From: Reyranella massiliensis 521
GTDB taxonomy: Bacteria; Pseudomonadota; Alphaproteobacteria; Reyranellales; Reyranellaceae
Direction: 5' to 3'
Length of the DNA stretch: 64,000 nucleotides
Assembly: GCF_000312425.1 (NCBI RefSeq)
Contig: NZ_HE997181.1
Span: forward strand, 1,238,601-1,302,600
Part shown: positions 47,781 through 63,439 of the stretch, one piece after another
Layout of the letters: each line of letters starts with the position of its first letter
How positions within the stretch are numbered: the first letter of the stretch is position 1
Translations under genes and position numbers: made by a program
The notes under the pieces: generated by a model
What the model saw: the letters and a program-made list of their open reading frames with translations, nothing else
Databases searched by the model: none
Told to the model about the DNA's origin: nothing

Positions 47781-48997
47781 CGTTTGCCTTCGCGACCGAG
47801 GTTTTCTTCGCGCCGCCGTGTGGCCTCGTTCTCCACCGCTTCGGCCAGTGCCGGGATATGCGAGGCAATCTCGTAGAAGTCGCTGGCATAAAGAACCAGC
47901 AGGGTAGTTGGCCGAGTCGTCGCGACCGAAGCGGCGCGCGGCTGGCGATTGAGCAGCGCCATTTCACCGAAGAACGCTCCGTCGTCCAACCGTACCGAGC
48001 CGCCGGTCGGCAATCGCACCTCGACCTCGCCGTTCGAGATGAAAAACATCGAGTCGCCGGGATCGCCCCGACGCAACACCGTCACATGGGCGGGGTAGTA
48101 GCGCGTGCGCAACTTGCCCACGATCTCCGACAAGGTAACGACGCCGAGGGAGGCGAAGATGGGAACCCGCGAGACCTGATCCCAAACGCGCAGATATTCG
48201 CGTCGCCGCTCTTCCTGTGCAAAGCCGGTCGCGAGCACGCCGGTCATCAGCGCGAGCACGGCGATGCCGCTGATCATCAGCAGCGAGCCGATCATCCGGC
48301 CGCCGACGGTAAGAGGCACGACGTCGCCGTAGCCCGTGGTCGTCAGAGTAACGACCGCCCACCACATGGCATTGGGCAGGCTGCCGAAAGCCTCGGGCTG
48401 CTTCACGCGCTCGAACATGTGCGCAGCAGTGGCCGCGGCCATCAACAGGATGGCAAAGACAATCAGCACACTGGCGATCGGCGCGCGTTCGTTCGAGATC
48501 ACGCGGGCCAGGGTGCCGAAGGCCGGCGCATGCAGACCGAGCTTCATGATCCACAGGATGCAGAAGACGGACGCCGTATCGGTACCTGTGATGCCGTAGC
48601 CGCCGGTCATCATGACGGCCGGCATGGTCGCCAGCAGGCCGATCAAGCCAGGAAGGGTGGCGACCCAGTGCAGTCGTGCCCGCATCGGCGGCATCTCGGC
48701 ATAGAGCGGCATCTCGGGGGCGATCCAGAGCCGGACGAGATATTCAACCAGGAAGACAATCGTGACGATCCAGATTGCGCTGCGGAGATAGACGCGATGC
48801 CCCGCCGCGAATTCGTCGATCGAGAGCAGGATCACTGCCAGCAGGCCGACAGCCAGAACGATAAGATGGAAGGCCCGCCAGCGCCGCGCAGCGGGGCTGG
48901 GCTCGGCAGGACGCAGGACCGAGAAAACCTGCGATCGGAGTGTCTTTGACGCGGCCGTCACAGGGCGACCATAGGCGGCTTGGCGTGCCAATTGCAA
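47777..48997 (-). CDS. Cyclic-nucleotide-gated potassium channel (MloK1-like)
   Basis: A 406-residue channel with six membrane segments (about 42-60, 75-90, 115-130, 142-158, 172-192 and 232-258). The selectivity filter TTTGYGD is at 219-225. The C-terminal cyclic-nucleotide domain spans about 276-390, with the phosphate-binding cassette FFGEMALLNRQPRAAS at 342-357, including the glutamate and arginine that bind cAMP. This is the plan of bacterial CNG channels. The arginine-rich voltage-sensor pattern is weak in segment four. Confidence 0.88.
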   Translation of the reverse strand: MQLARQAAYGRPVTAASKTLRSQVFSVLRPAEPSPAARRWRAFHLIVLAVGLLAVILLSIDEFAAGHRVYLRSAIWIVTIVFLVEYLVRLWIAPEMPLYAEMPPMRARLHWVATLPGLIGLLATMPAVMMTGGYGITGTDTASVFCILWIMKLGLHAPAFGTLARVISNERAPIASVLIVFAILLMAAATAAHMFERVKQPEAFGSLPNAMWWAVVTLTTTGYGDVVPLTVGGRMIGSLLMISGIAVLALMTGVLATGFAQEERRREYLRVWDQVSRVPIFASLGVVTLSEIVGKLRTRYYPAHVTVLRRGDPGDSMFFISNGEVEVRLPTGGSVRLDDGAFFGEMALLNRQPRAASVATTRPTTLLVLYASDFYEIASHIPALAEAVENEATRRREENLGREGKR

Positions 48998-49055: not shown

Positions 49056-51134
49056 GTGGTTAACGATTTGCGCATTGCCGTCGATATCGGCGGCACTTTC
49101 ACGGATGTGGTGCTGGAACAGGGGGCTAGGCGGCTCACGCGCAAGCTGCTGACGACGCCCCAGCGGCCCGAAGAAGCGGTGCTTCAAGGCGTCCGCCTGA
49201 TCCTGGGGGATGCCGGCAAGGGTTTTGGCGACATCGCTGTGTTCGTGCACGGCACGACGCTCGCGACCAACGCCGTCATCGAACGGCGCGGCGCGCGCAC
49301 GGCCCTGATCGCGACGGAAGGCTTCCGCGACGTTCTCGATATTGCCAACGAAAGCCGCTACGACCAGTACGACCTGACCATCGAGAAGCCCAAGCCCCTG
49401 GTGCCGCGCGCGCTGCGCTTTACCGTGCCGGAACGCATGGACGTGCACGGCAAGGAGCGACTGCCGCTCGACGAGGCGGCCGTCCGGGAGTTGGCCAAGC
49501 AGCTCAAGCGCGAGAGCATCGAAAGCGTGGCCATCGCCTTCATGCACTCCTACGTCAATCCCGTGCACGAGCGCCGGGTGCGCGACATCCTGAAAGCCGA
49601 GCTGCCTGATCTCTGGGTGACGCTCTCCAGCGAGGTCTGTCCCGAGGTGCGCGAATACGAGCGCACGTCGACGGCCGTTGCCAATGCCTACGTGCAGCCG
49701 CTGATGGATTCCTACCTCGCGCGCATGCAGTCGGCCTTCGTGGCCGAGAAGTTCAAGGGCACGATCTATCTCGTGACGTCCGGCGGCGGTCTCACCGCCA
49801 TCGAGACGGCGCGGCGCTTTCCGGTGCGTCTGGTCGAGTCCGGCCCGGCCGGTGGCGCGATCTTTGCTGCACAGGTTGCGGCCCGCGCCGGCGAGAAGCG
49901 GGCGCTGAGCTACGACATGGGGGGCACCACGGCCAAGATCTGCCTGATCGACGATTATCAGCCGCACACGGCGCGGCTCTTCGAGGTCGACCGCGCGGCG
50001 CGCTTCCTCAAGGGCTCCGGCCTGCCCGTACGCATCCCGGTCATCGAGATGGTCGAGATCGGCGCGGGCGGCGGCTCGATTGCACGGCTCGATGCGTTGA
50101 AGCGGGTCACCGTCGGGCCGGAGAGCGCAGGCGCGGAGCCGGGACCGGCCTGCTATGGCCGCGGCGGCAGGCATCCCGCCGTCACCGACGCCAACGTCGT
50201 GCTGGGCACCATCGATCCTGCGCACTTCGCGGGTGGCTCGATCGCGCTCGATATCGAGGCGGCCCGCGGCGCGCTGGAGCGCGATGTCGCGGAAGGTATC
50301 GGCCTGTCGACCGAGATGGGCGCATACGCCGTCTACGAGATGGTGTCGGAGAACATGGCGAGTGCGGCGCGAGTCCACGCCGTCGAGCGCGGCTCGGTGG
50401 TCAATCAATATACGCTGGTCGCCTTCGGCGGCGGCGCACCGCTCCATGCCGCGCGCGTTGCCGAGAAGATCGGCGTCCAGCGCGTGATCGTGCCGCCCAA
50501 TGCCGGTGTCGGTTCGGCGGTGGGCTTTCTCGCTGCACCTGTGTCCTATGAACTCGTGCGCAGCCGCTACATGCGTCTCGACACGTTCGATGCGGTGGGA
50601 GCGACAGAGCTTCTCAACGAGATGAGCGCGGAAGCGACGGCCCTGGTGGCGCCGGGGGCGCGCGGTCTGCCGACCTTCGAGCGCCGTGTCGCGTTCATGC
50701 GTTACGTCGGTCAGGGCCACGAAATCATGGTGACTTTGCCGCAGCGGCCGCTCACCGAAGCGGATACCCAGGCGCTGCGCGAGGCCTATGAGAAGGACTA
50801 TGCCGTCCTGTTCGAGCGGCACATCCCCAACGCCGCGATCGAGGTGCTGAGCTGGTCGGTGCAGGTCTCGACCGAGGCCAAGCGACCGGAGGTGCAGGGC
50901 AAGGCGGGGACCGCAGCTGCGCCCGAGCCCGTAGGCCGGCGGCCGGTGTTCGATGGCCGCAGCGGCAAGTCGGCCGAGGTGCCGGTGTATCTCCGCGAGA
51001 GTCTGCCACCGGGGAGCGCATTCCAGGGGCCGGCAATCGTCGCCGAAGACGAGACTTCGACCTTCATTTCCGCGAGTTTTGCCGCGCATATCGATGCGTC
51101 CGGCTGTATCGTCATGGATCGCAAAGACGCGTGA
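49056..51134 (+). CDS. Hydantoinase/oxoprolinase subunit A (HyuA)
   Basis: A 692-residue ATPase subunit of an ATP-dependent cyclic amide hydrolase, with IAVDIGGTFTDVVLE near 6-20, HGTTLATNAVIERRGAR near 67-83 and DMGGTTAKICLID near 287-299. The start is GTG with a weak ribosome site. It pairs with the HyuB gene ten bases downstream. Strong resemblance to the first half of the fused protein at 8037-11879 makes them paralogues. It heads a rightward catabolic run that ends at 60795. Confidence 0.9.
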   Translation: MVNDLRIAVDIGGTFTDVVLEQGARRLTRKLLTTPQRPEEAVLQGVRLILGDAGKGFGDIAVFVHGTTLATNAVIERRGARTALIATEGFRDVLDIANESRYDQYDLTIEKPKPLVPRALRFTVPERMDVHGKERLPLDEAAVRELAKQLKRESIESVAIAFMHSYVNPVHERRVRDILKAELPDLWVTLSSEVCPEVREYERTSTAVANAYVQPLMDSYLARMQSAFVAEKFKGTIYLVTSGGGLTAIETARRFPVRLVESGPAGGAIFAAQVAARAGEKRALSYDMGGTTAKICLIDDYQPHTARLFEVDRAARFLKGSGLPVRIPVIEMVEIGAGGGSIARLDALKRVTVGPESAGAEPGPACYGRGGRHPAVTDANVVLGTIDPAHFAGGSIALDIEAARGALERDVAEGIGLSTEMGAYAVYEMVSENMASAARVHAVERGSVVNQYTLVAFGGGAPLHAARVAEKIGVQRVIVPPNAGVGSAVGFLAAPVSYELVRSRYMRLDTFDAVGATELLNEMSAEATALVAPGARGLPTFERRVAFMRYVGQGHEIMVTLPQRPLTEADTQALREAYEKDYAVLFERHIPNAAIEVLSWSVQVSTEAKRPEVQGKAGTAAAPEPVGRRPVFDGRSGKSAEVPVYLRESLPPGSAFQGPAIVAEDETSTFISASFAAHIDASGCIVMDRKDA

Positions 51135-51144
51135 GGAACCACCG

Positions 51145-52818
51145 ATGAGCCAATCCAACAGCGTCGGCCTGATCGACCTGCAGATCATGTGGAACCGCTT
51201 GATCGCGGTGGTCGAAGAGCAGGCGCAGACCCTGATGCGCACTGCCTTCAGCCCGATCGTGCGCGAGTGCGGCGACCTCTCCGCCGGCGTCTTCGACCTT
51301 CAGGGGCGGATGCTCGCCCAGGCGGTGACGGGCACGCCGGGCCATGTGAACTCGATGGCCGAATCGGTGAAGCACTTCCTGCGTTACTTTCCGGTCGAGA
51401 GCATGAAGCCGGGGGATGCCTACATCACCAACGATCCCTGGATGGGTACGGGCCATCTCAACGATTTCGTCATCACCACGCCCTGCTTCCACAACGGCAA
51501 GCTGGTGGCGCTGTTCTCCTGCACCAGCCATCTCATGGATATCGGTGGCATCGGCTTCGGTCCCGATGCGACCGACGTCTTCATGGAAGGCCTCTATATT
51601 CCGATGCTGAAGCTCTTCGACCAGGGCAAGGCAAACGAGACATTGTTTGCGATGATCCGCGCCAACACGCGCCAGCCGGTCGACACCGAAGGCGACGTCT
51701 ACTCTCTGGCCGGCTGTAACGATGTCGGCGCGCGCCGTCTGGTCGAGATGCTGGACGAGTTCGGCATCGACTCGCTGGACGAACTCGGCGACCACATCAT
51801 CGCCCGCTCGCGCGAGGCCGTGCTGGCGGAGATCGCCAAGCTGCCCAAAGGCACCTGGCACAACACCATGACGGTCGACGGCTACGACGAGCCGGTGACC
51901 TTGTCGGCCTCGCTCACCGTGTCCGACACGGGCATCCATGTCGATTACACCGGTACCACCGGCGTGTCGCGGCGTGGCATCAACGTGCCGCACGCCTATA
52001 CGACGGCCTATACGGTGTTCGGCCTGGGATGCGTGGTCTCCACACATATTCCCAACAACGCAGGCTCGCTCGAGCCGCTTACCGTATCGGCGCCCGAGGG
52101 CTCCATCCTGAATGCACCCAAGCCCAGCGCCGTGGCCTCGCGTCATGTCATCGGCCAGATGCTGCCGGACGTGACCTTTGGCTGCCTGCGCCAGGCGGTG
52201 CCCGAGCGGGTGCCTGCCGAGGGCACTTCCTGCCTGTGGAACATCAACGTGCGCGGCCACGTGAAAGGCGGCGAGGGCGGCAACTACGGATTCGGCATGG
52301 CCATCACCTCCAACGGCGGTACAGGTGCGCGTCCGGACAAGGACGGGCTCTCTGCCACGGCCTATCCCAGCGGCGTGCGTGGCACGCCCGTCGAGATCGC
52401 CGAGACACAGACGCCGCTCATTTTCTGGCGCAAGGAGTTCCGTCCCGACTCCGGCGGTGCCGGCCGCACGCGTGGCGGGCTGGGCCAGATCATGGAAATC
52501 GAAAGCGGCATCGCGGAGCCGTTTGATCTGTTGGCCGCTTTTGACCGCATCGACCATCCGCCGCGCGGCCGCGACGGTGGCGCCGATGGCGAGGCGGGGT
52601 TCGTGGCGCTTAAGTCCGGTGGTAAGCTCAAAGGCAAGGGCTTCCAGCTGATTCCACCGGGCGACCGCCTCGTAATCATGACGCCGGGTGGTGCCGGTAT
52701 CGGCGCGCCGGCCGAACGCGATCGGGTTCAAGTCGCTAACGATCTCGCCGACGGCTTGATCTCCGAGGAAGCAGCTAGCAAGCTATATGCATATAAGCCG
52801 CTTCAAGCGGCAGAATAG
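51145..52818 (+). CDS. Hydantoinase/oxoprolinase subunit B (HyuB)
   Basis: A 557-residue catalytic partner of HyuA. It begins LIDLQIMWNRLIAVVEEQA and carries ECGDLSAGVF, TGTPGHVNSMA and TNDPWMGTGHLNDF, the conserved N-terminal block of the family, and ends with PGGAGIG. I chose ATG 51145 with GAGGAA upstream; an earlier in-frame start lies inside hyuA. Substrate may be a hydantoin, N-methylhydantoin or lactam. The next gene encodes a binding protein 31 bases away. Confidence 0.9.
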   Translation: MSQSNSVGLIDLQIMWNRLIAVVEEQAQTLMRTAFSPIVRECGDLSAGVFDLQGRMLAQAVTGTPGHVNSMAESVKHFLRYFPVESMKPGDAYITNDPWMGTGHLNDFVITTPCFHNGKLVALFSCTSHLMDIGGIGFGPDATDVFMEGLYIPMLKLFDQGKANETLFAMIRANTRQPVDTEGDVYSLAGCNDVGARRLVEMLDEFGIDSLDELGDHIIARSREAVLAEIAKLPKGTWHNTMTVDGYDEPVTLSASLTVSDTGIHVDYTGTTGVSRRGINVPHAYTTAYTVFGLGCVVSTHIPNNAGSLEPLTVSAPEGSILNAPKPSAVASRHVIGQMLPDVTFGCLRQAVPERVPAEGTSCLWNINVRGHVKGGEGGNYGFGMAITSNGGTGARPDKDGLSATAYPSGVRGTPVEIAETQTPLIFWRKEFRPDSGGAGRTRGGLGQIMEIESGIAEPFDLLAAFDRIDHPPRGRDGGADGEAGFVALKSGGKLKGKGFQLIPPGDRLVIMTPGGAGIGAPAERDRVQVANDLADGLISEEAASKLYAYKPLQAAE

Positions 52819-52849
52819 CAAAACAGGGAAACAGGGAAGGGAGACTTCG

Positions 52850-53854
52850 ATGAAACTGGGACGCCGAACCGCACTGAAGGTTGGCGCCGGCGCGGCAATG
52901 TTCGCACCGGCGATCGTGAAGGCGCAGTCGGGCATGAAGCTTGACCTGGCAACGGTCTGGCCCGATGGCAACTACCACACCAAGAACGCCAAGAAGTTCG
53001 CCGAGGAAGTCGGCAAGGCGACCAACGGCGGCGTGGCGATCACCGTCCATTCCGGCGGGTCGCTGGGCTACAAGGGACCCGAACAGCTCAACGCCGTGCG
53101 CGACGGGCTGGTGCCGATGGCCGATATCCTGAACATCCAGCAGGTCGGCGATGCGCCGCTGCTGGGCATCGAGGGCGTGCCCTTCCTCGTCGGCAATGCC
53201 GATGAACTCAAGGTGCTGCAGAAGTATGCGCGGCCCGAGTTCGACAAGATCGCCACCAAGTTCAACCAGACGATCCTCTACACGGTGCCGTGGCCCACGC
53301 AGTACATCCATTGCAATGTCAAGGCGGACACGGTCGACGGCCTGAAGGGCCTCAAGATCCGTGTGCCCGACCGTCAGGCCGGCGACATGATCAATCTGCT
53401 CGGCATGTCGGCCGTGCAGATCCCCTGGGGCGAGACGGTGCCGGCGCTGGCGTCGGGCGCCGTGGTGGGCGTCAGCACCTCCTCGGTGTCGGGCGTCGAC
53501 GGCAAGTTCTGGGAGTTCCTCAAGGTCTTCTACAAGACCAATCATGTCTGGAGCAGCCAGATCGTCACCATCAACAACGACACCTGGAAGAAGATTTCGC
53601 CGGCCAATCAGAAGGCGATCACCGATCTCGCGGCGAAGCTGCAGCCGGAGTTCTGGCAGGTCTCGATCGATGCCGACCAGGCCAGCGCCAAGCGGATGAT
53701 CGAAGGCGGCATGACCATGATCGAAGTGCCGCCGGCCATGTTGGCCGACATGCGCAAGCGGACCGCCTCGCTCGAGAAGGCCTTCATCGATCGCGCCGGT
53801 CCGGTCTCGGCCGACATCATCGCCAAGTACAAGAAAGAGCTGGGCCGCTCGTAG
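52850..53854 (+). CDS. dctP: TRAP transporter substrate-binding protein with Tat signal
   Basis: A 334-residue DctP-family receptor. The leader GRRTALKVGAGAAMFAPAIV (residues 4-23) is a twin-arginine signal, cleaved near VKAQS, so the protein is exported folded. The mature part has the family pattern VHSGGSLGYKGPEQL and LKIRVPDRQAGD. The ATG at 52850 follows GGGAAGGGAG. It is the receptor of the second TRAP set, between hydantoinase and downstream catabolic enzymes. Confidence 0.88.
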   Translation: MKLGRRTALKVGAGAAMFAPAIVKAQSGMKLDLATVWPDGNYHTKNAKKFAEEVGKATNGGVAITVHSGGSLGYKGPEQLNAVRDGLVPMADILNIQQVGDAPLLGIEGVPFLVGNADELKVLQKYARPEFDKIATKFNQTILYTVPWPTQYIHCNVKADTVDGLKGLKIRVPDRQAGDMINLLGMSAVQIPWGETVPALASGAVVGVSTSSVSGVDGKFWEFLKVFYKTNHVWSSQIVTINNDTWKKISPANQKAITDLAAKLQPEFWQVSIDADQASAKRMIEGGMTMIEVPPAMLADMRKRTASLEKAFIDRAGPVSADIIAKYKKELGRS

Positions 53855-53926
53855 CCGGTCTTTGTCGGGAGCGGGTCGGTTGGACGGCGCGCTCCCGCCG
53901 AATCTCAAAAGAAAAGAGGAGTATGG

Positions 53927-54466
53927 ATGAAGGCGGATCCGGCGGGCCGTGTCCTTGACCTGATCGATGGGCTGTCGATGTGGGGTGCCTGGGCATCCGC
54001 GCTCTGCATCGTCTCGATTCTCGGCCTGATCGTAGCCGAAGTTCTGTCGCGCAACTTCTTCAATGTCAGCCTCTACTTCGCCTGGGAGTTCAGTGCGTAC
54101 CTCATGGGCGCGGCCTTCCTGATGGGCGCGGCCTATGCGCTGCGCGCCGGGGCGCAAATCCGCGTCAATGTGCTGCTGGAGAACGTGCCGAAGCCTATGG
54201 CGCGGCTGCTGGATATCTTCGCCACGATCTGTGGCGTGCTGATCGCCGTCTACCTTACCTGGGCGCTGGGCGAACTCACCTGGCTGTCCTACGTCCGCGA
54301 GTCACGCTCGCCGGAAAAGAGCGAGATCCTGCGCTGGATCACCCAGTTCCCGTTGGCGCTGGGCTCGCTCCTCTTCACGTTGCAAACGATTGCACGGCTC
54401 GGCCGCCTGCTGCGCGGCGAGCCGGGCGATGATTCCCGTCTCCGTATCGGTCAGGACATCGAATAA
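53927..54466 (+). CDS. dctQ: TRAP transporter small permease, DctQ family
   Basis: A 179-residue membrane protein with four hydrophobic segments at about 19-42, 54-70, 95-115 and 138-155. EVLSRNFFNVSLYFAWEFS after the first segment is the typical DctQ region. AGAGGAG precedes the ATG. DctM starts three bases after its stop. Confidence 0.87.
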   Translation: MKADPAGRVLDLIDGLSMWGAWASALCIVSILGLIVAEVLSRNFFNVSLYFAWEFSAYLMGAAFLMGAAYALRAGAQIRVNVLLENVPKPMARLLDIFATICGVLIAVYLTWALGELTWLSYVRESRSPEKSEILRWITQFPLALGSLLFTLQTIARLGRLLRGEPGDDSRLRIGQDIE

Positions 54467-54469
54467 CGC

Positions 54470-55771
54470 ATGAGTGCCATCCTGACCTGGTTGCTGGTTC
54501 TGATGACCGCAACCCTCTGTCTCGGTATCTGGATCGGTCCTGCGCTTCTCGCGGTGGGCGTCGGCCTCCTGGAGATGTTCACGAACCGGCCGACGCACAA
54601 GCTGATCGGTGCCTGGGCGTTCAACGTCCTCACTTCGTCGGACATCGTCTCGCTGCCGCTGTTCATCTTGATGGGTGAGCTGCTGTTCCGTACGCGGCTG
54701 TCGCAGTCCCTGTTCTCGGGAATTGCCCCCTGGATGAGCTTCCTGCCGGGGCGGCTGTTCCACACAACGGTGATCGGCTGCTCGATGTTTGCCGCCATCT
54801 CGGGGTCGTCGGCCGCGACGACGCAGGTGGTGGGCCGCATCACCCTGACCGAGCTCTTGAACCGCGGTTATGACAGGGGGCTCGCGGTCGGCAGCCTGGC
54901 GGGAGGGGGAACGCTCGGCTTCCTGATCCCGCCATCGATCCCCATGATCATCTACGCGGTGCTGGCCGAGGAATCGCTGCTGCGATTGTTTACGGCGGGC
55001 TTCCTGCCGGGGATCGCGTTGGCCGGCTGTTTCATGGCCTATATGGGCTTGCGGGCGACCCTCAATCCGAAGCTTTTGCCGAGTGACGATCACGGCAACT
55101 GGACGTGGTCCGATCGCTTCCGCAGCCTGATCGAGCTGGGGCCGGTCGCCTTCCTGATCCTCTCGGTGCTCGGCACCATGTATGCCGGCATCGCCAGCCC
55201 CTCCGAGGCTTCGGCGATCGGCGTGCTGGGAGCCTTGGCGGTGGCCGCCTTCCAGCGCACGTTGAGCTGGAAGGGGCTGCGCGATGCCCTGCTGGGCTCG
55301 GTTCAGACGACCTGCATGATCGGGATGATCGTCCTTGGCGCCTTCGTGGTCGGCACGGTGCTCGCCAACCTGCGCGTGCCGCAGTTCGTCTCGGCGGAAA
55401 TCACCTCGTGGAACCTGTCGCCCTTCGTGTTGATCATGTTCCTGATGTTCTTCTACATCCTGCTCGGCACGGTGCTGGAAGGCTTCTCCATGATCGTACT
55501 GACCCTGCCGATCGTGCTGCCGGTCGTGCTGGCGGCGGGCTTCGACAAGGTGTGGTTCGGCGTCTTCCTGATCCTGACCATCGAGATGGCGCAGATCACC
55601 CCGCCGGTGGCCTTCAACCTGTTCGTCATCCAGAACATCACGGGCGACTCGCAGACCTACGTCGCCTGGAAGGTCATCCCATTCTTCCTGATCATGATGG
55701 GCTTTACGGCCCTGATGACCATCTTCCCCAGCTTCGTGACCTGGCCGGCCGATTTCATCCTGTCGAGGTAG
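54470..55771 (+). CDS. dctM: TRAP transporter large permease, DctM family
   Basis: A 433-residue permease with about eleven to twelve hydrophobic segments and the DctM signatures GSSAATTQVVG, GTLGFLIPPSIPMIIYA and EMAQITPPVAFNL. It completes the second TRAP system. Its place after hyuAB and before three amine-related enzymes suggests that the imported solute feeds that pathway. Confidence 0.92.
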   Translation: MSAILTWLLVLMTATLCLGIWIGPALLAVGVGLLEMFTNRPTHKLIGAWAFNVLTSSDIVSLPLFILMGELLFRTRLSQSLFSGIAPWMSFLPGRLFHTTVIGCSMFAAISGSSAATTQVVGRITLTELLNRGYDRGLAVGSLAGGGTLGFLIPPSIPMIIYAVLAEESLLRLFTAGFLPGIALAGCFMAYMGLRATLNPKLLPSDDHGNWTWSDRFRSLIELGPVAFLILSVLGTMYAGIASPSEASAIGVLGALAVAAFQRTLSWKGLRDALLGSVQTTCMIGMIVLGAFVVGTVLANLRVPQFVSAEITSWNLSPFVLIMFLMFFYILLGTVLEGFSMIVLTLPIVLPVVLAAGFDKVWFGVFLILTIEMAQITPPVAFNLFVIQNITGDSQTYVAWKVIPFFLIMMGFTALMTIFPSFVTWPADFILSR

Positions 55772-55817
55772 ATCGGCCTCTGCCAAACTCCCGAGACTGG
55801 AAGTTCTCGGGGGATGA

Positions 55818-57182
55818 ATGGAACCGCGTCAGGTCAAGACAGGCGCCGATGCGCGCAAGATCGTCAAGCAACGCGGACTGACCCACGTCAAGGTGGGCGT
55901 CCACGACATAGACGGGGTCCTACGCGGCAAGTACCTGCACGTCGACAAGTTCAACTCGGCGCTCGACGGCGGCTTCGGCTTCTGTGACGTCGTGCTGGGC
56001 TGGGACATCAACGACCAGCTTTACGACAACGTCACCTATACCGGCTGGCACACCGCCTACCCCGACGCCATGGTGCGCATCCTGCCCGAGACGTGCCGCG
56101 AGATCGCGACCGAGCCGGGCAACCTGATGTTTCTCTGCGAGTTCGTGGACCGAGCCGAGGAGATCTGTCCACGCGGGGTGCTGCGGCGCGTGCTGGCACG
56201 GGCAGCCAGGCTCGGCTTCGAGGTCAAGGTGGGCTTCGAATACGAGTTCTTCGTCTTCGCCGAGACGCCCGAGTCGATCCGCGAGAAAGGCTACAGGAAC
56301 CTGAAGCCAATCTCGCCGGGCTTCTTCGGTTACTCGGTGCTGCGCAACTCCGTGCTGAGCGACTGGTACAAGGACCTCCTCGCCATGTGCGAGGCGATGG
56401 ACATGGGCATCGAGGGGCTGCACACCGAGACCGGCGCGGGCGTGCTGGAAGCGGCGTTGCGCGTCGACGATGCGCTGGCGGCGACCGACAAGGCCGCGCT
56501 CTTCAAGCTCTTCACCAAGGTGCTGGCGCAGAAGCGCGGCTGGCTCGCCACCTTCATGGCTAAATGGTCGAAGGACTGGCCCGGCTGCGGCGGCCACATG
56601 CACATGTCGCTGTGGAAGGGCGGCAAGCCGGTGTTCTTCGACGAGAAGGCGCCTTATCGCATGAGCCCGACCATGCGCCATTTCGTGGGAGGCCAGGCGG
56701 CGCTGATGCCCGAGCTGCTGGGCATGGTGGCATCCAACGTGAACTCCTATCGCCGGTTGATTCCGGGCTTCTGGGCGCCGACCGTGTCGAGCTGGGGTGT
56801 GGAGAACCGCACGACCTCGCTGCGTGTCATTCCGGGCTCGGCCAAGTCGACGCGCGTGGAGTATCGCGTCGCCGCGGCGGATGCGAACCCGTACCTCGCC
56901 CTGGCGGCAGCGGTCGGCGCAGGCCTGTGGGGCATCGAGAACAAGGTCGATCCCGGCGAGCCGGTTAAGGGCAATTCCTACGAGAAGAAGCATCCGGCGA
57001 GGGCAGAGCTTCCGCGCACCCTGATGGAGGCGGCGGGCCGGCTGAAGGCATCGAAGGTGGCACGCGACCTGTTCGGCGATGCCTTCGTCGATCATTATGC
57101 TGCAACACGTGAGTGGGAAGAGCGGGAGTTCCGCAAGGCCATCACGGAATGGGAACTCGACCGCTATATGGAAATCATCTGA
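55818..57182 (+). CDS. Glutamine-synthetase-family ligase (gamma-glutamylpolyamine / gamma-glutamylmethylamide synthetase-like)
   Basis: A 454-residue enzyme with the GS fold: GFEYEFFVF (metal site) near 136-144, GCGGHMHMSLW near 257-267 and RLIPGFWAPTVSSWGVENR near 312-330, with the substrate arginine. The N-terminal domain is short and differs from housekeeping GlnA, placing it with PuuA/GlnT-like ligases. These join glutamate to an amine with ATP. The amine here is unknown. Its stop overlaps the alcohol dehydrogenase start (TGATG). Confidence 0.87.
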   Translation: MEPRQVKTGADARKIVKQRGLTHVKVGVHDIDGVLRGKYLHVDKFNSALDGGFGFCDVVLGWDINDQLYDNVTYTGWHTAYPDAMVRILPETCREIATEPGNLMFLCEFVDRAEEICPRGVLRRVLARAARLGFEVKVGFEYEFFVFAETPESIREKGYRNLKPISPGFFGYSVLRNSVLSDWYKDLLAMCEAMDMGIEGLHTETGAGVLEAALRVDDALAATDKAALFKLFTKVLAQKRGWLATFMAKWSKDWPGCGGHMHMSLWKGGKPVFFDEKAPYRMSPTMRHFVGGQAALMPELLGMVASNVNSYRRLIPGFWAPTVSSWGVENRTTSLRVIPGSAKSTRVEYRVAAADANPYLALAAAVGAGLWGIENKVDPGEPVKGNSYEKKHPARAELPRTLMEAAGRLKASKVARDLFGDAFVDHYAATREWEEREFRKAITEWELDRYMEII

Positions 57183-58342
57183 TGTCACTCGTCGGCAACT
57201 GGAACTATCCGACCTCGATTCGCTTCGGCGCTGGCCGTATCCGCGAGCTGGCCGACGCTTGCAAGGCCGTGGGGCTGCGCCGCCCGTTGCTGGTCACCGA
57301 TCCCGGCCTCGCCAAGCTGCCGATGATCGGCGACGCCGTGACGGGCCTGCGCAAGGCCGGCCTCGAAGTGGCGCTGTTCAGCGACGTGAAGCCCAATCCG
57401 GTGGCTGCCAATGTCGAGGCCGGCATCCGGGTGCTGCGGGCCGGCAAGCATGATGGCGTGATCGCCTGGGGCGGCGGCTCTGGCATCGACGCGGCCAAGG
57501 CCATTGCCTTCATGGCGGGCCAGACGCGGCCGCTCTGGGATTTCGAGGATGTCGGCGACTGGTGGACACGCGCCAATCCGGCCGGGATCTATCCCTCGAT
57601 CGCCGTGCCCACGACGGCCGGCACCGGCTCTGAGACGGGCCGGGCGTCGGTGATCACCAACGAGCAGACGCACACCAAAAAGGTGATCTTCCATCCCAAG
57701 ATGATGCCCTCGATTGTCATTGCCGATCCCGAACTGTCGGTCGGCCTGCCGGCCAAGCTCACGGCCGGCACGGGCATGGATGCCTTCATCCATTGCTTCG
57801 AGGCGTATTGCGCGCCGGGCTATCATCCCTATGCCGAAGGCATCGCCGTCGAGGGCATGCGGCTGGTGAAGGAGAACCTGGCGCGTGCGGTGAAGGACGG
57901 CCGCGACATCGAGGCCCGCAGCCACATGCTGGCGGCCTCGCAGATGGGCTCGACGGCCTTCCAGAAGGGGCTGGGGGCCATCCATTCCCTGTCGCATCCG
58001 GTGGGCGCCGTGCTCGACACGCATCATGGCCTCACCAACGCCGTCGCCATGCCTTACGTCGTGAAGTTCAATCGCGCGGCGATCGAGGAGAAGGTCGTCC
58101 GGCTGGCGCGCTGGCTCGACCTGCGCACGCCCACCTTCGACGGCTTCATGCAGTGGACCCTCGATCTGCGCCGAGAGATCGGCATTCCCCATACGCTCGC
58201 CGAGCTTGGCGTGAAGGTCGAACACCTCGACAAATTCGCTGCCATGGCCGCCGAAGATCCGACGGCGGGCGGCAATCCGATCAAGGCGGGCGTGCCGGAA
58301 ATGCGCAAGATGTACGAAGCCGCCGTGGCGGGCCGGCTCTGA
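57182..58342 (+). CDS. Iron-containing alcohol dehydrogenase
   Basis: A 386-residue group III alcohol dehydrogenase. The NAD loop WGGGSGIDAAKAIAF is near 96-110, and the metal site includes the aspartate and histidines of GTGMDAFIHCFEA, HSLSHPVGA and DTHHGLTNA. It oxidises or reduces an alcohol/aldehyde pair. The ATG at 57182 overlaps the ligase stop and its own stop overlaps the flavoprotein start, so all three are translationally coupled. Confidence 0.88.
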   Translation: MSLVGNWNYPTSIRFGAGRIRELADACKAVGLRRPLLVTDPGLAKLPMIGDAVTGLRKAGLEVALFSDVKPNPVAANVEAGIRVLRAGKHDGVIAWGGGSGIDAAKAIAFMAGQTRPLWDFEDVGDWWTRANPAGIYPSIAVPTTAGTGSETGRASVITNEQTHTKKVIFHPKMMPSIVIADPELSVGLPAKLTAGTGMDAFIHCFEAYCAPGYHPYAEGIAVEGMRLVKENLARAVKDGRDIEARSHMLAASQMGSTAFQKGLGAIHSLSHPVGAVLDTHHGLTNAVAMPYVVKFNRAAIEEKVVRLARWLDLRTPTFDGFMQWTLDLRREIGIPHTLAELGVKVEHLDKFAAMAAEDPTAGGNPIKAGVPEMRKMYEAAVAGRL

Positions 58343-60795
58343 TGGCCGCCAGCTTTCCGACGCAGGCCCGGGTCGTCATCGTCGGTGGTGGCATCATGGG
58401 ATGTTCCACGGCCTACCATCTCGCCAAGCTCGGCTGGAAGGACGTGGTGCTGCTGGAGCAGGGCCGGTTGAGCGGCGGCACGACCTGGCACGCGGCAGGA
58501 CTCGTCGGTCAGTTGCGCAGCTACCAGAACCTGACGCGCCTCATCCGCTATAGCACCGAGCTTTACTCTAAGCTCGAGGCCGAAACCGGCCTTGCCACCG
58601 GCTGGAAGCAGTGCGGCTCGCTCTCCGTTGCGCGCACCGAGGAGCGCATGGTGCTGCTGCGCCGCTCGGCGGCCATGGCCAATGCCCAGGGCGTGGCCTG
58701 CGAGCCGCTGACGCCGAAGCAGGCGGGCGAGAAATATCCCATCATGCGCACCGACGACCTGGTCGGCGCCGTGTGGCTGCCAGGAGACGGCAAGGCCAAC
58801 CCGGCCGACATCACCCAGGCGCTGGCCAAGGGCGCGCGCAATGGCGGCGTGCGCATCTTCGAGAAGGTCCGGGTCACGGACGTCGATACCAAGGACGGCC
58901 GCGTCACCGGCGTGCAGACGACCGAGGGGCCGATCACGGCCGAGATCGTGGTCAATTGCGCGGGGCAGTGGGCGCGCCAGCTTGGCCGCAAGGTCGGTGT
59001 CACCGTGCCGCTCTATTCCTGCGAGCACATGTACATCGTCACCGAGAAGATGGAGGGCGTGCCGCGCGATCTGCCGGTGATGCGCGATCCTGATGGCTAC
59101 ATCTACTTCAAGGAAGAGGTCGGCGGCCTGCTGATGGGCGGCTTCGAGCCCGAGGCCAAGCCCTGGAACAAGGACATCATTCCCGACGATTTCGAGTTCG
59201 GTATGCTGCCGGACGACTGGGATCAGTTCCAGATCCTGATGGACAATGCGCTGATCCGCGTCCCGTCGCTGGAGAAGACCGGCATCAAGACGTTCATGAA
59301 CGGGCCGGAGAGCTTTACGCCCGACCTGAACTATATCCTGGGCGAGGCGCCGCAGGTCCGTGGTTTCTTCGTCGGCGCAGGATTCAACTCGATGGGCATC
59401 GCAAGTTCCGGCGGCGCCGGCATGGCGCTTGCCGAATGGATCGTGGCCGGCGAGCCGACGATGGACCTCTGGCCGGTCGATATCCGCCGCTTCGCCAATT
59501 TCCACGGCAACGATGCCTGGCTGCGCGAAAGGGTCAGCGAGACCTTGGGGCTTCACTACAAGATGTCCTGGCCGCAGCGTGAGCAGGAGAGTGGCCGGCC
59601 GTTTCGTCGTTCGCCGCTCTACGATCGCCTGAAGGCGCGAGGCGCGTGGTTCGGCAACAAGATGGGCTGGGAGCGGCCCAACTGGTTCGCCGGAATCGGC
59701 AAAACGCCGGAAATGCAATACGGCTGGGGCCGCGGCGCCTGGTTCGATGCGGTCGCTGCCGAGCATCGCGCGACGCGCGAAGGCGTGACGGTGGTCGACG
59801 AGACCTCGTTCGGCAAGATCCTGGTACAGGGGCGCGATGCCGAAGCAGCCCTGCAACAGCTCTGCGCCAATGACGTTGCTCTGCCGGTCGGGCAGACTGC
59901 CTACACAGGCGCTTTTAATGCGCGGGGCACCTTCGAGAGCGACTTCACCGTGGCGCGGCTGGCGCGCGACAAGTTCCTGATTATCACCGGCTCGGCCCAG
60001 CCGACGCGCGACATGGATTGGCTGGGCCGCAACCTGCTGCCCGACGCACATGTCGTGCTGACGGATGTGACGTCCGCCTGGACCGTGCTGTCGGTGATGG
60101 GGCCTAAGAGCCGCGCGCTCCTGCAGAAGGTGAGCCGCGCCGACTTCTCCAACGAAGGCTTTCCATTCGCAGCGATTCGCGAGATCGGCGTGGGCTACGC
60201 CACGGTGCTGGCGGCGCGTCGCACCTATATGGGCGAACTGGGCTGGGAGCTTTACGTGCCGGCCGAGTTCGCCGCGACGGTGTTCGAGACCCTACACGAG
60301 GCAGGTGCCGAGTTCGGCCTGCGCGATGCCGGTTACTATGCGGTCGAAGGCCTGCGTCTGGAGAAGGGCTACCGCGCCTGGGGGCGCGAGTTGACTCCGG
60401 ACGACACGCCGTTCCAGGCCGGCCTCGCCTGGGCCGTGAAACTCGACAAGCCCGGTGGCTTTATCGGTCAGGAGGCGCTGGTCGAGGCCAAGACCAAGCC
60501 ACTGACGCGGCGGCTGGTATCGGTAGTGCTCGAGGACCGCGAACCGTTGCTATGGGGCGGTGAAGCTCTTCTGCGCGACGGAGCGCCGGTGGGTGATCTC
60601 ACCTCGGCTGCCTACGGCCACACGATCGGCGCTGCGCTCGGGCTGGGTTACGTGAAGCGCGCCGACGGTTCGGCAATCGATGCAGCCTGGCTGGAAGCGG
60701 GCCGGTTCGAAGTCGATCTTGCCGGCACCCGGCTCAAGGCCAAGGTCTCGCTGCGGCCGCCTTACGATTCCGCCGGAGCCCGCATCAAGGTCTGA
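58342..60795 (+). CDS. Dimethylglycine/sarcosine-dehydrogenase-like flavoprotein with GcvT domain
   Basis: An 817-residue two-domain enzyme. Residues 1 to about 430 are the DAO-type flavin domain with GGGIMG at 15-20 and TTWHAAGL at 47-54, where His50 is the likely covalent FAD histidine. From about 435 a GcvT/aminomethyltransferase-like domain follows, which passes the one-carbon unit to tetrahydrofolate. It would oxidatively demethylate an N-methyl amino acid. Coupled by TGATG to the alcohol dehydrogenase. Its end overlaps the convergent phosphate-transporter gene by 34 bases. Confidence 0.88.
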   Translation: MAASFPTQARVVIVGGGIMGCSTAYHLAKLGWKDVVLLEQGRLSGGTTWHAAGLVGQLRSYQNLTRLIRYSTELYSKLEAETGLATGWKQCGSLSVARTEERMVLLRRSAAMANAQGVACEPLTPKQAGEKYPIMRTDDLVGAVWLPGDGKANPADITQALAKGARNGGVRIFEKVRVTDVDTKDGRVTGVQTTEGPITAEIVVNCAGQWARQLGRKVGVTVPLYSCEHMYIVTEKMEGVPRDLPVMRDPDGYIYFKEEVGGLLMGGFEPEAKPWNKDIIPDDFEFGMLPDDWDQFQILMDNALIRVPSLEKTGIKTFMNGPESFTPDLNYILGEAPQVRGFFVGAGFNSMGIASSGGAGMALAEWIVAGEPTMDLWPVDIRRFANFHGNDAWLRERVSETLGLHYKMSWPQREQESGRPFRRSPLYDRLKARGAWFGNKMGWERPNWFAGIGKTPEMQYGWGRGAWFDAVAAEHRATREGVTVVDETSFGKILVQGRDAEAALQQLCANDVALPVGQTAYTGAFNARGTFESDFTVARLARDKFLIITGSAQPTRDMDWLGRNLLPDAHVVLTDVTSAWTVLSVMGPKSRALLQKVSRADFSNEGFPFAAIREIGVGYATVLAARRTYMGELGWELYVPAEFAATVFETLHEAGAEFGLRDAGYYAVEGLRLEKGYRAWGRELTPDDTPFQAGLAWAVKLDKPGGFIGQEALVEAKTKPLTRRLVSVVLEDREPLLWGGEALLRDGAPVGDLTSAAYGHTIGAALGLGYVKRADGSAIDAAWLEAGRFEVDLAGTRLKAKVSLRPPYDSAGARIKV

Positions 60796-62444
60796 TCGGC
60801 AGGCTTGAGGCGCGTTTCGGCAAGTTCGCCGGCCGCTTCCAGGATGGGATAGGCGACCGTCGTCAGATGGCCGTTGATGCGCTTCAGGTCGCGGATCACA
60901 TCCATGTGGATCGAGCTGGTCTCGATGGATTCCGGCCGGCCCTCGCGCAAGCGTGCGAAGTGGCTGTCGCCGGCGTGCATCTCCGCCTCGCGCATGGACG
61001 TCTTCTCGGCGACAAGACGCCGGGCCAGCGTGATGTCGCGGGTCGTGAACACGTTCAGGGCCAGCCGCAGGTTCTCGAGGACGCGGGCATGGAAGGCGCG
61101 GAGCTCCTTCGTGCCCTCGGCCGAGAAGGAATAGCGGTTCCTGATCTTCTTGGCGGCGAGTTCCATCAGGTTCTTGTCGATGATGTCGCCGACATGTTCG
61201 AGATTCGTGGTGAATGTCAGGATCTCGACGTAGCGCCGGCCATCCTCCTCGCCGAGCTCGTTGCGCGAGGTCTGGACGAGGTAGAGCTTGATCGCCTCGT
61301 AGAGGTGATCGACGGCATCGTCGGCCGCCTCAATCGCCTTAACCGCCCGGGCGTCGTTGTTCTCCAGGGCGTCCATGGTCTGGCGCAGCATGTCGGCGAC
61401 CTTGTCGCCGAGATTGAGCGTCTCGCGCATGGCACAGGCCAACGCCTCGGCGGGCGTGTCGAGCACGTTGGGGTCGAGATGGCGAGGGCGGCCGGGGTCG
61501 TCGGCCTGAGGCCGATCAGGCACCAGCCGCCGACAGAGAGCGGCCAGGGGGTCGTTCAGCGGCAGGAAGACGATGGCTGCCACCACGCTGAACGCGGTGT
61601 GGAAATTCACCAGGAGCCGGGCGGGCGCGGGATCGATGAACGCCAGCCAGTGGTGAATGGGACCGAGGAAGAACAGCAATCCGGCCCCGACCGCGACACG
61701 CGTGATCAGATTGCCGAGAGGCACGCGACGGGCATCGACATCGGTGGTCGACTGGTCGAAGTAGGGCGCAATCGCGCCGCCGATATTGGCGCCGATGATC
61801 AGCGCAAGGCCGAGCTTGGGTTCGATAATGCCGCTGCTCGCAAAAGACATGACCAGCAGGACCGACGACAGGCTGGAATGTACGAACCACGTCGCTGCGG
61901 CAGCGAAGACGACGGCCAGCACGTATTCGTCCTGCAGGCCCGAGAGCACGGCGACGAAGGTTGGCGAGGCCCGCAGCGGCGCGGCGGCGGCTTCCAGAAG
62001 ATGCAGCGACAGCAGCATCAGGCCGAGGCCAATCGCGACGCGGCCAAGATGGCGGGCCTTGTCCGAACTGTTGGACAGGAAGGCGATTACGCCGACGGCA
62101 ATCATGAACGGCGACACCCAACCCAGGTTGAACGACAGGATCTGGGCGGTGAGGGTGGTGCCGACATTGGCGCCGAGCATGACGGCGAGCGCGATCGACA
62201 GCGGGATGAGTCCGCGGCTGGCAAACGAGGCCAGCAGCAGCGCTGTCGCCGTGCTCGACTGCAGGATACCGGTGAGGCCGACGCCGCCGGCAAAGGCGGT
62301 GAAGCGATTGCGCGCGCAAGCGCCGATGGCGCGGCGCAGGGTGGCGCCGAATGCGCGCGTCAGTCCGGTGCGGACCATGCGGACGCCCCAGAGCAGCAGG
62401 CAGACGCTGCCCAGCACGTTCAGAACTGTGTCGACACCCTGCAT
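60762..62444 (-). CDS. Na+/phosphate cotransporter with PhoU-like domain (NptA/YjbB type)
   Basis: A 560-residue protein. Residues 1 to about 310 hold the two Na/Pi repeats, the first with GLTGILQSSTATALLLASF, the second with SSLSSVLLVMSFASSG. Residues about 350-550 form the helical PhoU-like domain. Such proteins move phosphate, often outward in bacteria. It lies downstream of a LysR gene on the same strand, 55 bases away. Confidence 0.9.
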   Translation of the reverse strand: MQGVDTVLNVLGSVCLLLWGVRMVRTGLTRAFGATLRRAIGACARNRFTAFAGGVGLTGILQSSTATALLLASFASRGLIPLSIALAVMLGANVGTTLTAQILSFNLGWVSPFMIAVGVIAFLSNSSDKARHLGRVAIGLGLMLLSLHLLEAAAAPLRASPTFVAVLSGLQDEYVLAVVFAAAATWFVHSSLSSVLLVMSFASSGIIEPKLGLALIIGANIGGAIAPYFDQSTTDVDARRVPLGNLITRVAVGAGLLFFLGPIHHWLAFIDPAPARLLVNFHTAFSVVAAIVFLPLNDPLAALCRRLVPDRPQADDPGRPRHLDPNVLDTPAEALACAMRETLNLGDKVADMLRQTMDALENNDARAVKAIEAADDAVDHLYEAIKLYLVQTSRNELGEEDGRRYVEILTFTTNLEHVGDIIDKNLMELAAKKIRNRYSFSAEGTKELRAFHARVLENLRLALNVFTTRDITLARRLVAEKTSMREAEMHAGDSHFARLREGRPESIETSSIHMDVIRDLKRINGHLTTVAYPILEAAGELAETRLKPADQTLMRAPAES

Positions 62445-62499: not shown

Positions 62500-63366
62500 T
62501 TACGACGCAAGCTTGCTTGCTTCGTCCATGAAGGCCCGGACCAGTGCGACGCGGCGGCGTTCCTGGAGGCAGACCGCATACTCGGCCACGGCAAGATCAC
62601 GATCGGCGATGACGATGCGGCGGAAGCGGCGGTCTTCGCCGAGTTCGCTCGCAAACACTGCGCCGATACCGAAGCCTGCCGCCACCGCCTCGCGCACGCC
62701 TTCGCGCGTCTGCACTTCGACGATGGAGGCTGGCTTGATATCGGCAGCGGCCATCGCCTGTTCAAGCACTTCTCGTGTGATCGAACCGCGTTCACGCAGG
62801 ACCAGTTCCTGCCCGGCAAGCGCGGCAAGAGGGGTGCGGCCACGCCGCGAGAGCGCATGGCGCGCCGGTACGAACAGGACCACTCGGTCCGTGCGCAGCC
62901 GCACCGTATGAAGCCGTGGGTCGGAAATGCTCTTGGCCATGACTGCCACATCGGCCTCGTGACGCAGCAGGCGTTCCAGCACGCCGGCGGAATTGTCGAT
63001 GGAGAGCGCAAAGGTGAGGCCGCCGGCTCGTTTGCGCAGCGCGGCCATGATCGGCACGACATGATGGGCGGAGTCCGCGGCGATGCGCAAATGGCCGCGC
63101 ACCAGCGCCTGCTCGCCGGCCAGCAGTGCCTGCGCCTCGTCCTGAACGGCGAAAAGGCGCGTCGTGATGCCGTGCAACTGACGGCCGGTCTCCGTTGGCG
63201 TCACGGCGCGGCTCTTCCGGTCGAACAGGCGCACGCCGTAGCTCTTCTCGAGGGCGGTTACTTGGCCCGACAGGTTGGGCTGGCTGAGGCCGGAGGCGCG
63301 CGCGGCGGCGGAAAAGGAGCCGGCTTCGGCGACAAGATGAAAGGCGCGGAGCTGCGTGGGTGTCAT
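62500..63366 (-). CDS. LysR family transcriptional regulator
   Basis: A 288-residue regulator with the N-terminal winged helix (TPTQLRAFHLVAEAGSFSAAARA, near 2-24, then LSQPNLSGQVTALE) and a type 2 periplasmic-binding-like effector domain. I placed the start at 63366 since family sequence begins there; the upstream in-frame extension to 63531 would run into the divergent gene. Facing the transaminase gene across 73 bases, it is probably its activator. This matches LysR control of 2-aminoethylphosphonate use in other proteobacteria. Confidence 0.88.
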   Translation of the reverse strand: MTPTQLRAFHLVAEAGSFSAAARASGLSQPNLSGQVTALEKSYGVRLFDRKSRAVTPTETGRQLHGITTRLFAVQDEAQALLAGEQALVRGHLRIAADSAHHVVPIMAALRKRAGGLTFALSIDNSAGVLERLLRHEADVAVMAKSISDPRLHTVRLRTDRVVLFVPARHALSRRGRTPLAALAGQELVLRERGSITREVLEQAMAAADIKPASIVEVQTREGVREAVAAGFGIGAVFASELGEDRRFRRIVIADRDLAVAEYAVCLQERRRVALVRAFMDEASKLAS

Positions 63367-63398
63367 ATAGAGAAAACCAATAGGTAGCATATGGAATA

Positions 63399-63404
63399 TA
63401 TACT
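63399..63404 (+). promoter_or_regulatory. -10 element of the transaminase gene
   Basis: TATACT, five of six matches to consensus, sits 35 bases before the ATG. No good -35 hexamer is seen 17 bases upstream, as is usual for a promoter that needs a LysR activator. The surrounding 63381-63404 is A+T-rich. Confidence 0.4.
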
Positions 63405-63439
63405 GGACGGATAGAACATGCGAGCCGATCATTGATCTC

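Follow-up and report, generated by a model that had tools for sequence, protein, structure and literature searches.

The window analysed here, a stretch of 64,000 nt from Reyranella massiliensis 521 (G000:C1:1238601-1302600, on the single contig of a 5.79 Mb genome), carries eight co-directional genes on the + strand at 49056-60795, encoding a HyuA/HyuB lactam hydrolase, a TRAP transporter, a glutamine-synthetase-like ligase, an iron-containing alcohol dehydrogenase (Fe-ADH) and a DMGDH-like protein. We propose that this run is a composite of three catabolic modules that were joined in the lineage, the last enzyme of which would be a folate-coupled N-demethylase of methylated compounds of the ethanolamine or 2-aminoethylphosphonate (AEP) type, a reading that we regard as evenly poised between right and wrong. 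An earlier note on this DNA had described a rightward run of these genes, the last three coupled by TGATG overlaps, with no carbamoylase, aldehyde dehydrogenase or regulator among them; open reading frames and Pfam matches bear out the gene types and their order, two 1-nt overlaps lie at 57182 and 58342, and none of the three absent functions is encoded by the eight genes. Taken gene by gene, the roles that it proposed are plausible: lactam opening with uptake, glutamylation of an amine by the ligase, and N-demethylation coupled to folate. Their joining into a single route for an N-methylated cyclic amide is not supported. From gene content, order, domain make-up, conservation and genomic associations we infer the substrates, the co-transcription of the run and any link between its modules.

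Conservation and separation of the run

Within the genus the run is genuine and conserved, and it is also found joined in one genome of a neighbouring genus (G070), yet its halves can live apart, because hyuB and the ligase gene occupy separate loci in sister genera. The comparison covered 75 genomes of the family, 65 of them in the genus of the window, with counts read by eye; reading frames in the relatives' loci were chosen by a codon score trained on nine window genes, and neighbours were labelled by tblastn to 37-43 labelled proteins, other neighbours being mostly unnamed. A ligase orthologue, whole or in part and at least 83% identical, is present in 59 of the 65 genus genomes, the other six giving only matches of the 30% type. 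HyuB of at least 87% identity occurs in 46 of the 75 genomes and shares a contig with the ligase in 41 (the window is included in both counts), so the arrangement is beyond chance. Eight sister-genus genomes have HyuB at 77-80% identity; the ligase is absent from the flanks of the eight sister-genus hyu loci examined, and in all six of the sister-genus genomes outside G070 that have both genes they lie on different contigs, albeit in draft assemblies. Four of these sister-genus loci (L191, L192, L193 and L195) encode HyuA, HyuB, DctP, DctQ, DctM and then a flavin adenine dinucleotide (FAD) oxidase of about 400 aa, with an MFS gene identified between HyuA and HyuB in L191. HyuB, TRAP and oxidase genes are together in L194 and L198, L196 has HyuB and the oxidase with neither HyuA nor TRAP found, and L197, a 5-kb contig, has HyuB and TRAP only.

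These observations bear on the pathway of the earlier note, taken here as one in which the transporter and HyuAB would import and open an N-methylated cyclic amide, the DMGDH-like enzyme would demethylate the product, and the ligase and alcohol dehydrogenase would handle by-products. Many genomes of the genus preserve the order HyuAB-TRAP-ligase-Fe-ADH-DMGDH, often with tight spacing in the 3' half, and the sister-genus FAD oxidase scores best, though always below cut-off, with models for N-methyltryptophan oxidase and sarcosine oxidase, which makes a secondary amine after ring opening plausible. The 5' and 3' halves are nevertheless separate loci in sister genera, the ligase and Fe-ADH sit in an eto-type cassette that occurs class-wide without hyuAB, the DMGDH-like clade is accompanied by AEP and kinase genes, and the solute-binding protein keeps a residue ill-suited to the proposed cargoes (see below). 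We consider a single pathway of this kind highly improbable.

The DMGDH-like protein and its clade

The DMGDH-like clade is in our view the most interesting part of the locus. The window protein (58342-60795, +; start likely 58342) fuses an FAD amine dehydrogenase to a folate-binding GCV_T domain, and its architecture (Pfam DAO, FAO_M, GCV_T and GCV_T_C) is that of dimethylglycine dehydrogenase (DMGDH) and dimethylglycine oxidase (DMGO), which also supply its closest PDB chains (mammalian DMGDH and Arthrobacter DMGO); its nearest named relatives are copies in Reyranella assemblies, with 88-89% identity. His50, His229, Tyr255 and Asp534 are invariant in eight clade members, His50 aligning to the solved DMGDH and DMGO and Asp534 to DMGO (mammalian DMGDH has Glu). 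We take His50 to be the histidine that links flavin covalently and Asp534 to be the folate-site aspartate, and conservation of the former predicts a covalent FAD. What distinguishes the window type from DMGDH and DMGO is its genomic company, namely AEP, amino-alcohol-kinase or gamma-glutamyl-amine genes.

In the window genome PhnW-PhnA-PhnY begin at the right edge of the window, with a Na/Pi cotransporter gene and a LysR gene between the run and PhnW, and PhnA scores above the cut-off of its equivalog model. A tree of 58 rows places the DMGDH-like protein in a clade of 22 (support 100/97), of which 15 have AEP genes in the locus, as against 0/18 in the sister clade and 1/15 in a further clade; among the AEP-free rows of the clade, L064, L059, L208 and L153 end at the locus or contig end and L210 is truncated on one side. 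The Aminobacter locus also contains a long-branch paralogue, which carries the AEP label only because of that location. In a FastTree phylogeny of 138 rows AEP genes accompany 35 of the 68 clade rows and 5 of the 70 outside. They are also found in 23 of the best 80 among 573 named loci (18/75 when five Reyranella-type loci are left aside), a set retrieved with patterns from an alignment of mostly AEP-linked members and biased toward the clade; outside those five, the frequency is 9/17 at 60% identity or above and 9/58 below 60%. As a rough control, the taurine gene Xsc (at least 40%) occurs in 2 of the best 80. Beyond the family, AEP-linked copies are carried by plasmids of Sinorhizobium meliloti (pSymB) and Aminobacter and, among the named genomes, by Mesorhizobium, Thalassobium, Roseobacter, Ruegeria, Pandoraea, Cupriavidus, Paraburkholderia, Neoroseomonas and Methylobacterium.

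Actinobacterial and acidobacterial members have a different partner, a gene of the choline/ethanolamine-kinase family, which lies upstream in 11 of their 12 clade rows (one gene further up in L274; not found in L267, a short contig), and all nine of the kinase-family genes scanned are above the Pfam cut-off. A GS-like ligase (33-35%) and an aldehyde dehydrogenase are near the DMGDH gene in 5 of the 12; L266 adds a Peptidase_C26 hydrolase and a short-chain dehydrogenase, a gene set resembling the GlnA4 cluster (PMC6529630). The pair of DMGDH-like and kinase genes was seen in L266, L268-L272, L274, L275, L280, L285 and L289, all from Actinobacteria apart from one Acidobacteriota assembly. Separately, a second DMGDH-like paralogue of 44-48% identity shares a contig with the first, at a distance of about 6-25 kb, in 12 family genomes (G061:C26, G056:C9, G013:C7 and G002:C6 among them); it was not found in the window genome.

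A related described chemistry is that of PbfC and PbfD, which convert N-methyl-AEP, itself not a substrate of PhnW, to phosphonoacetaldehyde, with AEP plus formaldehyde considered as an alternative (PMC10590968). Like the DMGDH-like clade, PbfB, PbfC and PbfD are FAD amine oxidoreductases that recur in AEP clusters, but PbfC and PbfD, compared here by description, use non-covalent FAD, whereas the window enzyme has the flavin-linking histidine and a folate domain. That paper uses DMGDH as a comparison sequence, and the word 'folate' does not occur in its main text. Our search of the main texts of open-access papers returned none that ties a DMGDH/folate enzyme to AEP catabolism or to ethanolamine kinase.

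It is possible, although we lean somewhat against it, that the clade consists of undescribed folate-coupled N-demethylases for methylated ethanolamine head-groups, acting on N-methyl-AEP beside PhnWAY in Proteobacteria and on N-methyl(phospho)ethanolamine beside kinase or gamma-glutamyl-ethanolamide genes in Actinobacteria and Reyranella; the gene neighbourhoods suggest a methylated 2-aminoethyl compound as the common thread. In the composite reading itself, the enzyme of the run would strip the N-methyl group from a methylated compound of the ethanolamine or AEP type and pass the carbon to tetrahydrofolate, its product entering the ligase module of the run, the neighbouring PhnWAY route or both; if the wider reading of the clade holds, the carbon would be saved as 5,10-methylene-tetrahydrofolate, and plain AEP or ethanolamine would be returned to known pathways. 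It would thus be a separate, folate-coupled solution beside PbfC/PbfD.

A simpler account takes the modules as unlinked and standard, the DMGDH-like protein being an ordinary sarcosine or dimethylglycine dehydrogenase that follows choline, betaine or N-methylethanolamine breakdown, and the AEP neighbours reflecting only a shared scavenging of organophosphorus head-groups. Its closest solved relatives, the aligned catalytic positions that it keeps and the induction of DMGDH on phosphocholine in Phaeobacter (PMC10132767) all fit this account; the near absence of AEP neighbours from the related paralogue clades does not, and in Actinobacteria the pairing with kinase genes favours an amino alcohol, or the phosphate of one, over a glycine derivative. 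We think it rather unlikely.

The ligase and alcohol dehydrogenase

The ligase (55818-57182, +; Pfam Gln-synt_C) falls below the cut-offs of the NCBIfam models for GlnA, GS III and GGputSyn, and is probably a gamma-glutamylase of ethanolamine or another amino alcohol. The gene that follows (57182-58342, +; Pfam Fe-ADH and ADH_Fe_C; start likely 57182) encodes the Fe-ADH, probably a gamma-glutamyl-ethanolamide dehydrogenase, in which the expected segments of what we take to be the metal site are present. The two belong to a cassette of the gamma-glutamyl-ethanolamide type, with ethanolamine as the probable substrate of the ligase. The ligase is 71% identical to that of L135, where the order DctQ-DctM-binding protein-ligase-aldehyde dehydrogenase is eto-like and the adjoining, EtoX-type binding protein matches 4uab (E 1e-133), which we take to be a Chromohalobacter protein with bound ethanolamine. 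The Chromohalobacter homologue binds ethanolamine (PMC10132767).

The eto operon of Phaeobacter sp. MED193 comprises an RpiR regulator, a hydrolase, EtoVWX, ligase, aldehyde dehydrogenase and alcohol dehydrogenase, the hydrolase acting on the gamma-glutamyl product (PMC10132767). The window likewise has a TRAP transporter, and a ligase followed by an alcohol dehydrogenase, but it has neither the aldehyde dehydrogenase nor the gamma-glutamyl-glycine hydrolase, its TRAP genes are in the order P-Q-M with a non-EtoX binding protein, and it adds hyuAB and the DMGDH-like gene. In Streptomyces coelicolor the GlnA4 cluster also combines a GS-like ligase with an aldehyde dehydrogenase, a further dehydrogenase and a hydrolase of the glutamine-amidotransferase type, but its dehydrogenase is short-chain, and the accessible text describes no TRAP, hyuAB or DMGDH gene there, unlike the window (PMC6529630).

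Across the class, 40 ligase loci (57-75% identity) were taken from 63 matching genomes and scored by eye. An aldehyde dehydrogenase, an alcohol dehydrogenase or both are matched in 37 of them, an Fe-ADH of at least 55% in 32 and a class-I amidotransferase in 8, and HyuA-like genes appear in L146 and L155 only. A plasmid of Legionella lytica carries the ligase, an aldehyde dehydrogenase, an iron alcohol dehydrogenase and an amidotransferase-type protein; one of Burkholderia vietnamiensis carries ligase, aldehyde dehydrogenase and amidotransferase; and one of Rhizobium leguminosarum carries a gamma-glutamyl hydrolase, a GMC oxidoreductase, ligase and aldehyde dehydrogenase. We also considered whether the ligase itself is tied to AEP genes, and rejected this as weak, AEP genes above 40% occurring in 2 of the 40 loci (L143 and L164).

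Two side observations concern ligase homologues elsewhere. On the plasmids of L124 and L125, homologues of 53% identity accompany a spermidine/putrescine-type ABC transporter, an aminotransferase, a P1-family peptidase and a dimethylformamidase-like protein, which makes another amine cluster. In genomes G309 and G209, of another family (L146, L155, L330 and L331), the ligase-Fe-ADH pair is followed, about 9 kb downstream, by a HyuA-HyuB pair (55-58% identity), a second and looser proximity of the two modules.

In the proposed scheme the ligase would attach glutamate to an amino alcohol, ethanolamine or one like it, and the glutamylated alcohol would then be oxidized to the aldehyde by the Fe-ADH. 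A general aldehyde dehydrogenase would replace the missing dedicated one, an orthologue of which is found in 7 of the 75 family genomes (E<=1e-110), three of them in the genus of the window; among those that keep it are G012 and G063, where its gene lies within the run itself. In some sister genomes an aldehyde dehydrogenase gene separates the ligase from the Fe-ADH. Hydrolysis to glutamate and glycine would fall to a hydrolase encoded elsewhere; the window genome has seven PF07722 matches, two of them full length and both of these away from the run.

HyuAB, the TRAP transporter and distant partners

The first two genes encode a HyuA-like ATP-binding subunit of a hydantoinase/oxoprolinase-type lactam hydrolase (49056-51134, +; GTG start; Pfam Hydant_A_N, Hydantoinase_A and Hydant_A_C) and a HyuB-like metal-binding subunit (51145-52818, +; start likely 51145; Pfam Hydantoinase_B), a two-subunit domain set that matches the family of ATP-dependent lactam hydrolases. 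Judged against the ATP-site, metal-site and caprolactamase vicinal-disulfide residues named in PMC8453981, HyuA has the ATP-site Asp motifs at residues 10 and 287 (by motif placement) and HyuB has the Asp-His-Asp-His metal set (by motif, not by alignment or structure), so that domains and both motif sets are shared with the HyuAB/CapAB/5-oxoprolinase family. The enzyme was rejected as caprolactamase CapAB. The best NCBIfam model of HyuA is CapA, at 499.6 bits, and CapB gives 210 bits, against equivalog cut-offs of 1000, and a motif check of HyuB found no Cys-Cys pair, whereas caprolactamase has the vicinal disulfide. The window also holds, at 8037-11879 on the - strand, a 1280-aa frame with a Hydantoinase_B match, apparently a single-chain protein of the hydantoinase/oxoprolinase type, and the genome has seven places that match Hydantoinase_B.

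The transporter consists of the solute-binding protein DctP, of the pyroglutamate type (52850-53854, +; start likely 52850; Pfam DctP), the small permease DctQ (53927-54466, +; Pfam DctQ) and the large permease DctM (54470-55771, +; Pfam DctM; NCBIfam TIGR00786 above cut-off). The nearest PDB sequences to DctP are 2pfz, 2pfy and 6wgm (E 9e-34 to 1e-29; the next 4e-18), and the same three head the structural ranking (Z 32.5, 32.5 and 32.2, the fourth 31.2; root-mean-square deviation of the matches 2.2-2.4 over 296-300 residues). The ranking comes from a predicted model of middling mean pLDDT (74.8), and the lead in Z over the fourth match is only about 1. All three structure titles name pyroglutamate or pyroglutamic acid, which supports, but does not prove, the binding of a pyroglutamate-type ligand. 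Arg171 and Trp148 are invariant in 14 aligned sequences that span both TRAP versions of the genus and the sister loci; the arginine is the carboxylate filter found in 96.8% of DctP-type proteins, Phe being its commonest replacement (PMC4646407). The carboxylate arginine and the top-three ranking thus link the window DctP to the pyroglutamate-binding subfamily (Bordetella DctP6 and DctP7, and 6wgm), albeit at about 25% identity and with WPTQY where those proteins have WPPQG or WPGQG. Creatinine, N-methylhydantoin and N-methylpyrrolidone, which the earlier note had named, are unlikely cargoes, since DctP keeps the carboxylate filter and all three compounds are without a carboxylate.

An EtoX-type ethanolamine transporter was rejected as an identity for this TRAP system, the L135 binding protein matching the window DctP only at E 0.002 (BLASTP); near the position of Arg171, as placed by eye, the L135 protein reads RVFGVP. 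Two versions of the transporter occur in the genus at the same place before the ligase (L049, L057 and others were compared with the window), with DctP either about 62-66% or 83-99% identical to that of the window. The ligase and, where present, HyuB remain 87-98% identical despite this divergence, which suggests that the transporter was replaced within the genus.

Could the lactam module serve the ligase by importing pyroglutamate and opening it to glutamate, the acyl donor for gamma-glutamylation of the amino alcohol? The pyroglutamate-binding structures closest to DctP, the 5-oxoprolinases among the HyuAB family and the TRAP genes that stay with the ligase where hyuAB is absent (L057 and L201) speak for this supply of glutamate. 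The hydrolase of the published pathway (PMC10132767) would, however, return the glutamate, leaving no need for a net supply, a further hydantoinase/oxoprolinase-type frame is present in the window, and hyuB-TRAP in the sister genera accompanies an oxidase, not a ligase. We find this explanation improbable.

Under the composite reading, HyuA/HyuB and the TRAP transporter would import, and open with ATP, a small carboxylate-bearing lactam such as pyroglutamate or an N-substituted relative, with the FAD amine oxidase and an agmatinase-family ureohydrolase, 21-24 kb downstream, as their partners. In four loci of a single genus (L194, L195, L196 and L198) the ureohydrolase gene follows that of the oxidase. 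In the window genome, where the run ends at 1299395, the oxidase (about G000:1320.8-1321.9 kb; 69% to the L195 copy) lies 21 kb and the ureohydrolase (1323334-1324302; 77% identity) 24 kb further on. By eye, 22 of the 75 family genomes have a ureohydrolase gene 19-56 kb downstream of DMGDH with contig and strand shared; in one further genome, G035, it shares a contig with a 52% DMGDH paralogue, far apart and oppositely oriented. Most simply, the ligase/DMGDH/AEP block sits between parts that the sister genus keeps together. The best solved match of the ureohydrolase is 3-guanidinopropionase (E 5e-147), so a guanidino compound may be involved. An N-alkylated, carboxylate-bearing lactam, opened by HyuAB and oxidized by the FAD amine oxidase about 21 kb away, is possible; from chemistry only, we considered an N-substituted pyroglutamate lactam (for example an opine lactam) or N-methyl-pyroglutamate as the substrate of this set.

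Points against the composite reading

Several observations weigh against the division into three modules and the roles assigned to them. hyuB-TRAP adjoins the ligase in the 41 family genomes counted above, so that a real functional tie may exist, and TRAP stays beside the ligase without hyuAB in two loci, as already described. For the lactam module, L194, L196 and L198 showed no HyuA beside HyuB, and in G002, G004 and G005, of another sister genus, the ureohydrolase is not adjacent to HyuB but 17-20 kb away. Both the oxidase and the ureohydrolase could be part of the AEP set instead, as the ureohydrolase of G033, G047 and G048, three of the 22 genomes, is present without HyuB of at least 87%. 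For the ligase module, the gene lacks an Fe-ADH in L058 and L063, the best NCBIfam model of the Fe-ADH is 4-hydroxybutyrate dehydrogenase (340 bits against a cut-off of 500), and among solved structures it matches methanol and propanediol dehydrogenases best; the transporter lacks an EtoX-type binding protein, no gamma-glutamyl hydrolase gene is in the run, and the window genome has no orthologue of the eto aldehyde dehydrogenase (best match 31%). For the DMGDH-like protein, L211 and L212 are AEP-free clade rows whose loci are not cut, and about half of the 68-row clade, a node of support 0.665 that was chosen after the labels had been seen, has no AEP gene in reach.

Junctions and flanking genes

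The intergenic gaps along the run are, 5' to 3', 10, 31, 72, 3 and 46 nt, followed by the two overlaps. Among relatives, the Fe-ADH/DMGDH TGATG recurs in L047-L051 and L202 and the ligase/Fe-ADH overlap in L046, L047, L048, L051 and L065; elsewhere the gaps are 11-20 nt or much longer (338 nt in L202 and 2378 nt in L064), and about 1.4-1.5 kb where an aldehyde dehydrogenase gene lies in between. No consensus promoter was found within the run (0 promoter-like sites), nor any clear terminator (9 terminator-like sites, against 6.7 +/- 3.4 in shuffles). A strong stem-loop (CCCGAGA...TCTCGGG) at 55788-55811 overlaps the region that leads up to the ligase start. The stem is clear only in the window and its closest relatives (L046-L048), and we rejected the idea that a conserved regulatory hairpin separates dctM from the ligase.

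To the left, at 46092-48997 on the - strand, are genes for a cyclic-nucleotide-gated ion channel and a ketosteroid-dehydrogenase-like FAD protein, which adjoin the run in most of the genus loci compared. To the right, a Na/Pi cotransporter family gene (60762-62444, -; Pfam Na_Pi_cotrans and PhoU) is convergent with the run, and also lies beside DMGDH/AEP genes in S. meliloti and Aminobacter. The LysR-type regulator gene (62500-63531, -; Pfam LysR_substrate and HTH_1) is divergent from PhnW, and its start codon may be placed too far upstream, homologues in L060-L062 being shorter (289-309 aa). PhnW, the 2-aminoethylphosphonate transaminase, starts at 63434 on the + strand and runs beyond the window end at 64000 (tblastn 49-51% to S. 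meliloti PhnW). The next 20 kb (L170, G000:1302601-1322600) encode PhnA, PhnY, an AEP-type ABC transporter with a phnS2 binding protein above cut-off, a PrpF isomerase (also above cut-off) and the FAD oxidase described above. On a plasmid of Ruegeria sp. THAF33 (L329), glyA, for serine hydroxymethyltransferase, is a neighbour of the AEP cluster and of a DeoR regulator gene, a setting consistent with one-carbon chemistry close to AEP use.

Implications

One caution from this locus is that a single co-directional run need not be a single pathway, as its two halves, which together resemble an operon, are separate in sister genera. If the demethylase reading is correct, the DMGDH-like enzymes would provide a carbon-saving entry for methylated head-groups into the breakdown of aminoethylphosphonate and ethanolamine, and phosphonate use, phospholipid head-groups and one-carbon metabolism would be tied together.

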